The position numbers and the translations under genes are program-made. Positions 15,748 through 26,750 of a stretch of DNA of 32,133 nt are shown piece by piece (positions within the stretch are counted from its first letter, which is position 1; each line of letters begins with the position of its first letter). Source of the DNA: Nanobdellota archaeon (GTDB lineage: Archaea; Nanobdellota; Nanobdellia; SCGC-AAA011-G17; GW2011-AR17); assembly GCA_013331795.1 (NCBI GenBank), contig DUFP01000022.1:1-32133 (forward strand), read 5' to 3'. The notes beneath the pieces are model-generated. The model was not told the origin of the DNA, did no database searches, and saw nothing but the letters and a program-made list of their open reading frames with translations.

Positions 15748-16673
15748 ATGAGTGGTTCTTTCAAACAATTTGGTATAAAACTGGCATATGAACAATTAGA
15801 AAAAAGGGGTGATAAACTTCAGATCTTTGATGGTCTTATTGATTGGTCTCGCTTTCAAACGTTATTTTTTCGTCGTGGAGGCAAAGGCAGACCTTCTTAT
15901 AATCCTATTATGATGTTTAAAGTGCTGATTCTTCAGCACTTGTACGGTATTGCTGATGAAGAAGTAGAGTATCAGATTGTCGATCGCATTTCTTTTCAAA
16001 GATTTCTTGGGTTTCCTGAGAATATTCCAGATCATACCACCATCTGGAGATTCAGAGAGTATCTCTCTGAAAATAATTTACATGATGTTCTTTGGAATGA
16101 ATTGAATCGCCAAATTCAAGATAAAGGTATACAATATTCCAAAGGGGTTATTCAGGACGCAAGTTTTATCACTGCAAATCCAGGAAAAACAAATACCAGG
16201 ATAAAATAGATCGTGGGCGTGGACAATCCACAACGAGAAATGAAGATGGAACATGGACACAGAAAAATGGAAAAAATTACTTTGGGTATAAGTTCCATAA
16301 TAAAGTAGAGTTAGGCAATGGATTTATTTCAGACTTTGCTGTAACAACAGCAAAGGTTCATGATAATCAAATCGACCTTGCAAAGGAAGATGAAATTGTC
16401 TATCGAGATAAGGGATATTTTGGTGCAAAAACTCAGGCAAAAGGAAATGCAACAATGGATAGAGGAGTGAGAGGAAGAAAACTAAACATTAGAGAGAGTC
16501 TTAGAAATAAAAGAATAGCAAGGATTCGTTGCGTAGGAGAAAGACCATTTGCAGTGATCAAGAATGTCCTCAATGGAGGACATACTCACTATACAGAGTT
16601 GCATAGAGTATTTACACAGCAATTCATGAATTGCTTTGTGTATAATTTGATCCAGCTAAAAAGAATTATCTGA
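15748..16673 (+). pseudogene. IS5-like transposase, interrupted by a -1 frameshift
   Basis: ORF A (15748-16209, 153 residues) has the N-terminal DUF772-type domain (FFRRGGKGRPSYNPIMMFKV, then DRISFQRFLGFPENIPDHTT) and the first catalytic Asp in VIQDASFIT. It ends in a stop at 16207-16209. The protein continues in the -1 frame: switching near 16188 reads NKYQDKIDRGRGQSTTRNED, then the family block TQKNGKNYFGYKFHNKV, the second Asp in YRDKGYFGAK and the Glu in GERPFAVIK, ending at 16673. The DDE triad is therefore split between frames. A run of five A's sits at the junction, but it is not a classical slippery heptamer in frame, so decay, programmed frameshifting and an assembly error all remain possible. 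Clear terminal inverted repeats were not found. Confidence 0.8.
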
Positions 16674-24216: not shown

Positions 24217-24303
24217 TGGGCCCGCTGCGATTTGAACGCAGGACCTCTCGATACCTGACTTTGTTATCAGTCGAGTGCTCCAGCCAGGCTGAGCTACGGG
24301 CCC
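24217..24303 (-). tRNA. tRNA-Ile (GAT) with a 12-base intron
   Basis: The 7-bp acceptor GGGCCCG/CGGGCCC, D-arm, anticodon stem CTCGA/TCGAG and T-arm CTGCG/CGCAG with TTCAAAT loop are all perfect; discriminator A; CCA not encoded. The anticodon GAT is at 24266-24268. The anticodon loop has 19 bases instead of 7, so 12 bases (24253-24264) are an intron at the canonical 37/38 site. CTGA of the exon pairs with TCAG of the intron, with 3-base bulges TAA and GTA at the cuts, matching a relaxed bulge-helix-bulge for the archaeal splicing endonuclease. Confidence 0.93.
24253..24264 (-). other. 12-base intron of tRNA-Ile
   Basis: Near the lower size limit of archaeal tRNA introns. Removal leaves loop CTGATAA. 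Boundaries follow the bulge-helix-bulge rule of cutting after the second bulge base. Confidence 0.8.
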
Positions 24304-24340: not shown

Positions 24341-24397
24341 TTTTTGAAAAAATGAAAAAGAAAAATAACGGCCTAGGTCGGGCTCGAACCGACGACC

Positions 24398-24427
24398 GAT
24401 ACCGCAAAACTGCCAAGGCAAATTTTG
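24398..24427 (-). other. tRNA-Asn intron 3, in the variable loop (about 44/45)
   Basis: About 30 bases. CCGC pairs with GCGG, followed inward by AAAA/TTTT and GCC/GGC. The exact site may be shifted by one base: the mature variable loop would be AGGTC or CGGTC. Confidence 0.7.
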
Positions 24428-24434
24428 TCGCGGT

Positions 24435-24462
24435 GTCTAGTTCAGCAGTATATCGCTGTGAT
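24435..24462 (-). other. tRNA-Asn intron 2, position 37/38 (canonical)
   Basis: 28 bases between CTGTTA and ACCGCG. The bulge-helix-bulge is weak (C-G, T-A and a G-U pair only), but an internal CAGC/GCTG stem is present. Repeated A's at the edge make the cut ambiguous by one base without altering the mature tRNA. Confidence 0.7.
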
Positions 24463-24472
24463 TAACAGCCGC

Positions 24473-24502
24473 CTGAGCTTAAGAAACAAAAATGCTTCTA
24501 AT
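24473..24502 (-). other. tRNA-Asn intron 1, position 27/28 (noncanonical)
   Basis: 30 bases. A 4-bp helix joins the D-stem GAGC to GCTC near the intron end, with 3-base bulges on each side cut after the second base. An inner imperfect helix TTAGAA/TTCTTAA completes the motif. Confidence 0.8.
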
Positions 24503-24553
24503 GTGCTCCACCACTGAGCTACTAGGCCTTATTTTCCAAAAAGCAGGAAGCAC

Positions 24554-24562
24554 TTTAAATAC
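24554..24562 (-). promoter_or_regulatory. TATA box of the tRNA-Asn gene
   Basis: Minus-strand GTATTTAAA is centred 30 bases upstream of the tRNA 5' end. Confidence 0.45.
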
Positions 24563-24659: not shown

Positions 24660-26750
24660 ATGACAAATACAATCTTATTAGGAGAAGCAAGGGTTTTATT
24701 AGAACAAGGAAAATCACCTCTTGAAGTAAAAAAGATGCTTTTACATCATCCCAACTCTAGGCAAGATCAAATTGATAAAACTGTAGAAGAAGCATTGCAT
24801 TTATGTGAACAAGCAGGAACACTTCCTCCTAAAAAACCACAAAAAATTGTAGTGCCAGTAAAGCGAGGAGTAGCACCCTCAGAAGTTACAACTGAAGAAC
24901 CTAAAAAAATAATACCTGCTACACCCGTAATAGTAAGAGAAGATACCACAGGAAATGGGTATATAACGAGTGCATCTTCTTTAGGAAGAGATGATGGAAC
25001 AACAACATTTGAAGAAATAGATAAAGGAAAAGAAAAGAAAAAGAGAGATTTCTTTACTCCACTCTTGTATGGCTTTGGAGCCATAGGTTTAGGCGCTATA
25101 ATCTATACATCATTTTCTTCCTTTTCCAGACCTAACTCAGAACCAGAAAGACCTCTACAAACAATCCAATCTTTACCATCGCCTTTAGAAATAAAACTAA
25201 AAGAAGAAGAAAAAATAATACCAGTTGTAAACGAAGAAAAACAAATCCTCAAATATGATGGAACAACAGTAACGATTGATCCTATCCCTGGTTATGGCCT
25301 GACAACATATGCTGCACTTCTTGCAGAGCAAGATATCAAAGATATTGCTGCGCTTTCTTGGGACGAACAAAAAGAACTTTTAAAAAAACAAAGGACAAAA
25401 TTAGCAAAAGCATCAAAAGCAGATCTCCGAGAAATACTTGCAATAACAACACAAATCACAGAAGCAAATCCAAGAGATGTCTATAAAAAAGCACTGACTT
25501 TGGAAGGCTTAAAAGATGCAACAAAAAATATTATCTATATGCATGTGCCTTTAAAATTATCTTATACTGCCCAAGAAAAAGTTTCAACAAGAGCATCAGA
25601 AAGGACTTTTCCTATTTTAGAAGAAAAAATATTTGTATATAATGAAAGAGAAAGTGAAACTCTTTTAGATGATAAACTTGCAATTAATTTTACGCTGCCT
25701 GGTATAGGTGTTTCCCAATATGTAACTGCCTTAGTAGAAGAAGGCTGGACGCAAGAAACAATATATGAACTTGCACAATGGGATGCAAAAAAACAAAAAC
25801 AAAGAGTAAAAAAAGCACATACAAGACATATACAAAGTATAGGCCAAAATGCAATGGACCCAATCCTAGAAATAACAAAAGACATAATTCAAGATCCTAT
25901 GAATAGTTCTGAAGTCCATAAAATTGATGTGACAGAAAAAGGCCTAAAAAATCCAAAAAGAAATGTTGTATATCTTACTACTTTTCTATTGCTTGATCCT
26001 GCAAAGGAGGATATAATCCAAAATTCTTTAGAAGAAATGCTAAGAAATTCCTACGAACAAACAAATATTCCAGACTTAGGAGCTTTGTTACAAGATTATT
26101 TTGACTTGAGAGCTATAGAAAGAGATATTCCTATTGTAGAAAATCCTGAACTCATGTCTGAGCTCACTAAGAATATTGCACGCCAATATAATACTTCACA
26201 AGCTGAAGGCATTTCAGAAAATCTGCTCAGCAAGGATTTCTCTCGAGAGAATCGTTTGGAGTTAGCAAGGGATTTGTATAGAGAGGCAGCAGACAGAAGG
26301 CAAAGAGATAGGTATATGACTGTAGAAGATATTCTTGATTTTGTAAATGAAGGCCTAGATGAAAGAATCACTGCAAGAGGTATTCGTGAGGCTGCACAAG
26401 AAACACGTACAGGTCTTTTACAAAAGCAAAGAAAAGATCGAATGCAAGAGATCTATGGAAAATTCTTAGAAAGAGACCTTCATCAGTCAAAGAAAGACTT
26501 CTATGGAACCATCGGAAAAGAGTATGATATTTCCCCAAGCACAGTCTATAAAGATATAAGAAAAGCTGAGGGAGGGGAAAAAACGAGAATTGTGTATGAT
26601 GCTAAAGAAGATTTTAAAATACTTTCTCCAAGCACAGTCTATTTACAAAATATACGAAAAGCAGAGGAAATGGAAAAACCAAAACTTGTGTATGATTCTC
26701 GTGAAGATTTTAAACTAATATATAATCTCCCCAAAGAAAAAGAAAATTAA
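24660..26750 (+). CDS. Large membrane-anchored protein with internal repeats, function unknown
   Basis: From the ATG at 24660 the protein has 696 residues. An N-terminal helical part (residues 1-50) is followed by a Pro/Thr/Lys-rich linker, a single membrane helix near 131-153 (TPLLYGFGAIGLGAIIYTSF) and a long soluble part. Two related units follow: residues ~197-300 (PIPGYGLTTYAALLAEQDIK ... LSWDEQKELLKKQRTKLAK ... LKDATKNIIYMHVPL) and ~335-445 (TLPGIGVSQYVTALVEEGWT ... AQWDAKKQKQRVKKAHTR ... LKNPKRNVVYLTTFL). The C-terminus has an HTH-like helix (DISPSTVYKDIRKAE) and a 31-residue tandem repeat. I recognise no family. It ends in a TTAA overlap with topoisomerase VI-A. Confidence 0.75.
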   Translation: MTNTILLGEARVLLEQGKSPLEVKKMLLHHPNSRQDQIDKTVEEALHLCEQAGTLPPKKPQKIVVPVKRGVAPSEVTTEEPKKIIPATPVIVREDTTGNGYITSASSLGRDDGTTTFEEIDKGKEKKKRDFFTPLLYGFGAIGLGAIIYTSFSSFSRPNSEPERPLQTIQSLPSPLEIKLKEEEKIIPVVNEEKQILKYDGTTVTIDPIPGYGLTTYAALLAEQDIKDIAALSWDEQKELLKKQRTKLAKASKADLREILAITTQITEANPRDVYKKALTLEGLKDATKNIIYMHVPLKLSYTAQEKVSTRASERTFPILEEKIFVYNERESETLLDDKLAINFTLPGIGVSQYVTALVEEGWTQETIYELAQWDAKKQKQRVKKAHTRHIQSIGQNAMDPILEITKDIIQDPMNSSEVHKIDVTEKGLKNPKRNVVYLTTFLLLDPAKEDIIQNSLEEMLRNSYEQTNIPDLGALLQDYFDLRAIERDIPIVENPELMSELTKNIARQYNTSQAEGISENLLSKDFSRENRLELARDLYREAADRRQRDRYMTVEDILDFVNEGLDERITARGIREAAQETRTGLLQKQRKDRMQEIYGKFLERDLHQSKKDFYGTIGKEYDISPSTVYKDIRKAEGGEKTRIVYDAKEDFKILSPSTVYLQNIRKAEEMEKPKLVYDSREDFKLIYNLPKEKEN
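26532..26720 (+). repeat. Two 93-base tandem repeats in the C-terminal coding region
   Basis: SPSTVY at 26532 recurs 31 codons later at 26625, and both copies continue with IRKAE, a Lys/Arg-rich linker, VYD and EDFK. The DNA is still alike (CCAAGCACAGTCTAT in both copies), so the duplication is recent or conserved. Confidence 0.75.

Follow-up and report, generated by a model that had tools for sequence, protein, structure and literature searches.

A tRNA-Asn gene with three predicted introns in a Woesearchaeota archaeon with a single detected alpha-type splicing endonuclease

Introduction

A 160-nt tRNA-Asn(GTT) locus raises the question of how a gene of this length would give a tRNA of normal size, and which enzyme would process its transcript. 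The locus lies in a 32,133-nt stretch of archaeal DNA (contig DUFP01000022.1, positions 1 to 32,133), which was analysed as a whole and is called the window here. Three-intron tRNAs are already known, mainly from the Thermoproteales, as a first-pass annotation of the window had stated and the literature confirms; examples are Pyrobaculum calidifontis tRNA-Glu(UUC) and P. islandicum tRNA-Pro(UGG) (PMC4390854, PMC4090602). It is therefore the host lineage, its alpha-only enzyme and the graded series of introns that are of interest here. In the accepted picture, many noncanonical tRNA introns are coupled to broad-specificity (alpha-beta)2 or epsilon2 endonucleases. The ribosomal protein uL2 of the window is 66–91% identical to five database records, three titled Candidatus Woesearchaeota and two from unclassified MAGs. 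These relatives identify the host, a tiny archaeon, as a member of the Woesearchaeota (DPANN) and bear out the earlier guess of a DPANN host.

Results

Structure of the tRNA-Asn gene

A de novo splice search that allowed up to three introns and was blind to relatives was applied to the locus. It scored normal-size cloverleaf pairing and consensus bases, and each intron had to form a central helix of the bulge-helix-bulge (BHB) type with at least 3 of 4 base pairs, correctly spaced from the two cut sites. The top solution removed 24473–24502, 24435–24462 and 24399–24428 and left a predicted product of 72 nt with discriminator G, anticodon arm CGCGG-CTGTTAA-CCGCG, anticodon GTT and variable loop CGGTC. 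Its score was 55.3, compared with a mean of 47.7 (sd 1.4, maximum 50.7) for 40 shuffles of the interior, and no one-intron solution was obtained. The exons join into a standard cloverleaf with a matching anticodon, as found by the splice search and by identity to the relative G003 (below). The features, all on the minus strand, are as follows.

24369–24528, minus: pre-tRNA-Asn(GTT), 160 nt, three introns (RF00005, blind splice search, orthologues)
24503–24528, minus: exon 1, 26 nt, 5' acceptor, D-arm, A26 and C27, through position 27 (splice search)
24473–24502, minus: intron 1, 30 nt, at 27/28 (splice search and comparison of four species)
24463–24472, minus: exon 2, GCGGCTGTTA, 10 nt, bearing anticodon GTT (splice search)
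24435–24462, minus: intron 2, 28 nt, at canonical 37/38, relaxed BHB (splice search, orthologues)
24429–24434, minus: exon 3, ACCGCG, 6-nt micro-exon with A38 and the 3' strand of the anticodon stem (splice search)
24399–24428, minus: intron 3, 30 nt, at 43/44 (splice search, orthologues)
24369–24398, minus: exon 4, 30 nt, variable loop CGGTC, T-arm, 3' acceptor and discriminator G (splice search)
24554–24561, minus: TATA-like box TATTTAAA, starting 33 nt upstream of tRNA-Asn (conserved block)

The first-pass annotation had read the intron lengths (30, 28 and 30 nt), the anticodon and its arm, the discriminator and the 72-base product exactly as the search returned them. It had also placed two of the introns at noncanonical sites, which the search and the orthologues support. 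Of its three positions, 27/28 and 37/38 stand, but "about 44/45" for the third gives way to 43/44.

Rfam tRNA model RF00005 matched the 160-nt locus over its full length with 36.1 bits in a search of the host's own genome, where the cut-off is 29 bits. ARAGORN in bacterial mode and an Rfam scan of the window at the gathering threshold missed the gene, and these misses are uninformative because the genome-wide model search detects it. Standard tRNA searches can thus miss essential tRNA genes in such genomes.

In intron 1, GCTC pairs with the D-stem GAGC (22–25), and all 4 of the 4 central pairs form. The structure has a 4-bp central helix, two 3-nt bulges and almost no exon–exon helix, so that it is a relaxed BHB; the D-stem pairing proposed earlier is correct, but the description "textbook" is not. 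The central pairs are maintained in four species, one of them as G-U, and in the inner helix three pairs have changed on both sides with pairing retained, in a small sample of four species. Intron 2 has 3 of 4 central pairs with one mismatch in all four species, and its consensus fold favours a different pairing. Intron 3 at 43/44 shows 4 of 4 central pairs (ACCG/CGGT), two 3-nt bulges and an adjoining inner helix, CAAAA/TTTTG. This position is preferred because it gives a regular BHB and a variable loop CGGTC as in the relatives G003, G005, G006 and G007. Placement at 44/45 in the window also gives 72 nt but is less regular, and G006 fits 44/45.

Orthologues with zero to three introns

Orthologues were found by DNA similarity together with the RNA model. 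The tRNA-Asn gene is free of introns in G004, a member of the genus, and in G007, G013 and G022 from other genera. In G003 (G003:C66:16092-16194) the sole intron is 31 nt long, lies in the D-loop (about 15/16) and has a full central helix. The uninterrupted arm of this gene, GGTGGAGCACGCGGCTGTTAACCGCGCGGTCG, is identical to the predicted spliced sequence of the window and spans all three junctions. G002 and G005 carry introns 1 and 2 and lack exactly intron 3. G006 has all three introns, as in the window, with the third at 44/45; its predicted product matches that of the window over the anticodon arm and variable loop, and the gene, which comes from a separate assembly, is 78% identical to that of the window. 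Intron 2 is common to the window, G002, G005 and G006 and is absent from G003, G004 and G007. Because orthologues without some or all of the introns exist, the junctions can be placed directly.

Gene order is fixed around the locus: one flank carries the topoisomerase VI B and A genes with a long ORF, the other tRNA-Ile, lysC, lysA and metG. This holds for the stretches fetched from G002, G003 and G005, and partly from G006; lysA and metG were compared only where covered. The TATA-like block is conserved across all intron states of tRNA-Asn.

Other tRNA introns in the genome

The tRNA set of the genome is rich in introns, and no other gene in it is as interrupted as tRNA-Asn. Introns at the canonical site were found by the splice search in Thr(TGT), Ile(TAT), Trp, Tyr, Arg(TCG), Arg(GCG) and Ile(GAT) of the same genome, and noncanonical introns in Arg(TCT) at 28/29, Leu(GAG) at 29/30 and Lys(TTT) at 30/31. 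The Lys(TTT) gene has a further intron at 37/38. These assignments come from the splice search alone, save where orthologues were compared. With these genes and the equally interrupted orthologue in G006, tRNA-Asn is no isolated oddity.

The neighbouring tRNA-Ile(GAT) has a very short intron.

24217–24303, minus: tRNA-Ile(GAT), 12-nt intron ACAAAGTCAGGT at 37/38 (24253–24264), bulge-helix-loop type

This gene also shows turnover. It has no intron in G003 and an intron of 12–13 nt in the host genome (G000) and G002, while G005 and G006 combine a 12-nt intron with one of 22 nt at 27/28. The introns of 12–13 nt are of the bulge-helix-loop type because they leave no room for an inner helix. Introns of this type are cut poorly even by the M. 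kandleri heterotetramer (PMC12397907).

As a separate observation, the tRNA with anticodon TAT (Ile) carries a 34-nt canonical intron (G000:C11:13743-13850); in this lineage, a UAU anticodon may serve to decode AUA.

Splicing endonuclease and ligase

The first-pass annotation, which had noted the broad specificity of the endonuclease in the Thermoproteales, had called for the enzyme of this genome to be classified. The expected (alpha-beta)2 or epsilon2 enzyme was not found, and this check gave an alpha-type protein only. One EndA gene was detected (G000:C16:9849-10409), encoding a single-unit protein of 187 aa with the N and catalytic C domains (PF02778 and PF01974). The catalytic triad Tyr, His and Lys is retained in the alignment to solved enzymes. 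Protein and family searches detected no second copy in the host's own assembly (90% complete). Neither this genome nor the 103 genomes of the order yielded a beta, fused-alpha or epsilon subunit. Fused or three-unit forms are not indicated in the order because the open frames are about 100–270 aa, which is too short. Among solved structures the best match is the catalytic chain of the Nanoarchaeum equitans enzyme 3IEY (E 1e-36). The EndA gene was not found in the assemblies of G001 and G003 though their tRNA genes carry introns, and G003 is rated 100% complete.

These data bear on a second reading, in which the gene and its introns are as described but cutting is by an (alpha-beta)2-type enzyme that escaped detection and has a diverged beta subunit. 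Elsewhere, broad specificity accompanies (alpha-beta)2 or epsilon2 enzymes (PMC6379350, PMC4033280), the closest solved relative is the catalytic subunit of a heterotetramer, and a beta subunit, like another tRNA-Asn copy, could be missing because the assembly is only 90% complete. However, PF01974 is matched in 96 of the 103 genomes, with one match above the cut-off in all but one of them (G048, 6% contaminated). In addition, phmmer with the EndA query reaches 3iey_B, the partner chain of N. equitans, at 2e-13, and an equally similar partner should therefore have been seen. We regard a hidden beta subunit as unlikely, though it is the most serious of the rival readings.

The alpha4 (those studied to date) and alpha'2 endonucleases are listed as narrow in specificity (PMC6379350). 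The enzymes to which reviews link broad specificity are the (alpha-beta)2 and epsilon2 types, which have a loop bearing lysine (PMC6379350, PMC12397907). Whether the Woesearchaeota EndA is an alpha-only enzyme of broad specificity is in our judgement evenly balanced. Such an enzyme would cut introns outside the range ascribed to alpha4 enzymes, whether relaxed, noncanonical or of the bulge-helix-loop type, even at a length of 12 nt. Broad cutting would perhaps be achieved through a conserved Lys-(Ser/Thr)-(Arg/Lys) motif, K41-S42-R43. Nearly all Woesearchaeota EndA inspected have this motif at the position of K44-P45-R46 in A. pernix, which is the lysine motif of the Crenarchaea-specific loop. 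It is a lead only, because the alignment in this region is of low confidence.

The genome also has an RtcB ligase gene. In the RtcB protein (G000:C21:300-3500), the active-site GFDIN/CGVR junction is occupied by an intein-like insertion several hundred residues long, and RtcB itself may therefore need protein splicing. Its frames are also long, about 1010 aa, in G002, G003 and G006. A second RtcB gene (G000:C12:16000-17600) is broken by a run of N in the assembly.

Discussion

Our data point to a functional tRNA-Asn(GTT) gene with three BHB introns, whose transcript would be cut by a single alpha-type EndA and joined by RtcB, and we consider this joint reading very probable. The structure of the gene, its junctions, orthology and distribution and the presence of the EndA and RtcB genes are established at the level of sequence; transcription, splicing, sequential cutting and the tetramer are inferred. 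An alternative is that the gene is silent or decaying and that an intact copy elsewhere is active. A second tRNA-Asn gene, which the first-pass annotation had named as evidence against the active role of this one, was found neither in G000 nor in G002, G005 and G006, so this locus is probably the only tRNA-Asn(GTT) gene of the genome. The G000 assembly is 89.7% complete, which leaves some room for another copy. However, the acceptor, D- and T-arms and the promoter are intact and conserved, the interrupted gene has been kept at the same locus in four species, and the intron helix shows compensatory changes. A silent copy is thus very improbable. A structure with two introns, one of them long or nested, is less credible still: the best such solution reaches a score of 50.1, but this is below the three-intron score, its anticodon stem is poor and its variable loop is 9 nt long, and the junctions are fixed by G002 and G005, which lack exactly intron 3, and by the uninterrupted anticodon arm of G003. 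An assembly artefact or inserted mobile DNA, to which the fragmented draft of 41 contigs and transposase remnants elsewhere in the window might point, can be practically dismissed, since the separate G006 assembly shows the same three introns with diverged sequence, and introns of 28–30 nt are located at BHB-type junctions.

For the three-intron gene, we propose that a single alpha-type EndA, most likely as a homotetramer, would cut the transcript and that RtcB would ligate the exons. Introns 1 and 3 each contain a few bases that mimic the 5' strand of a tRNA stem and pair with the 3' strand of that stem, which helps to form the central helix. These bases are GCTC for the D-stem in intron 1 and GCGG, inside GCGGT, for the anticodon stem in intron 3. 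The helix of intron 3 occupies bases 38–41, and 39–41 belong to the anticodon stem flanking intron 2. Introns 2 and 3 cannot both be cut in one fold because both need the same bases (around 39–42), and these mutually exclusive pairings imply sequential removal. Overlap between introns and an ordered pathway had been proposed in the first-pass annotation; the exclusive pairings of introns 2 and 3 agree with removal one at a time. Sequential removal would also avoid a free 6-nt exon. Elsewhere among the archaea, when introns lie close together, the folding of one is known to depend in some cases on prior removal of its neighbour (PMC8450103).

The orthologues give some insight into the history of the introns. 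A tree of seven ribosomal proteins groups the four genomes as ((G000,G002),(G005,G006)) with full support for the group. G003 and (G001,G004) fall outside, and the placement of G003 relative to (G001,G004) is weakly supported. Mapped on this tree, the presence of introns 1 and 2 indicates that they were gained within the genus, on the branch to the four genomes. Intron 3 is present in one member of each pair (G000 and G006), which would require either one gain and two losses or two gains. The copies of intron 3 in the window and G006 appear related (unadjusted p 0.013), and one gain with two exact losses is therefore favoured. The distribution as a whole indicates that the introns of tRNA-Asn come and go quickly within the genus and near relatives.

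Transposition of introns between tRNA genes was also considered. In an all-against-all comparison, no cross-gene similarity survived multiple testing; likeness was confined to orthologous introns and a few weak pairs, in the number expected among 231 comparisons. The 22-nt tRNA-Ile intron at 27/28 in G005 and G006 was rejected as a copy of intron 1 of tRNA-Asn, the likeness being found only in the end constrained by pairing.

The system resembles the three-intron tRNAs of the Thermoproteales, which likewise combine three BHB introns in one tRNA at canonical and noncanonical sites. It differs from them in its DPANN Woesearchaeota host and in the sites 27/28, 37/38 and 43/44 in tRNA-Asn. Thermoproteales have an (alpha-beta)2 endonuclease, whereas a partner of the alpha-type protein was not found here, and intron transposition between tRNA genes is reported for them, in contrast to the lack of any sign of copying here. 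ARMAN-2 (Micrarchaeota) is also a DPANN host with relaxed BHB introns at various tRNA positions (PMC12397907, PMC4033280), but its epsilon2 three-unit enzyme is unlike the 187-aa single-unit alpha protein. The alpha4 EndA of Methanocaldococcus jannaschii (1A79) is similar in size, domain order and catalytic residues, and in neither case was a partner gene found. It is, however, listed as narrow (PMC6379350), whereas the present host has relaxed and bulge-helix-loop introns. The catalytic chain of the (alpha-beta)2 EndA of N. equitans (3IEY) is the best match among solved structures, but that enzyme has a beta subunit, and none was found here. No description of noncanonical tRNA introns in Woesearchaeota was found in the literature searched, which covered the journals in part.

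In this lineage a tRNA gene can hold as many as three introns, and some introns are no longer than 12 nt, yet only an alpha-type enzyme was detected. If the alpha-only EndA is indeed of broad specificity, it would separate intron-rich tRNA genes from heteromeric endonucleases. The genus offers one orthologous tRNA gene with 0, 1, 2 or 3 introns in fixed synteny, on a tree with a resolved inner part. This graded series makes the gain and loss of tRNA introns directly testable.

Two other features of the window may be mentioned. The long ORF beside tRNA-Asn in the syntenic relatives (24660–26750, 696 aa) has no Pfam match and is fast-evolving, with 31–64% identity. A transposase fragment (DUF772, 153 aa) at 15748–16209 adjoins the ribosomal protein cluster, a short ORF at 16455–16673 looks like a further transposase piece, and the two together are probably a decayed insertion element.
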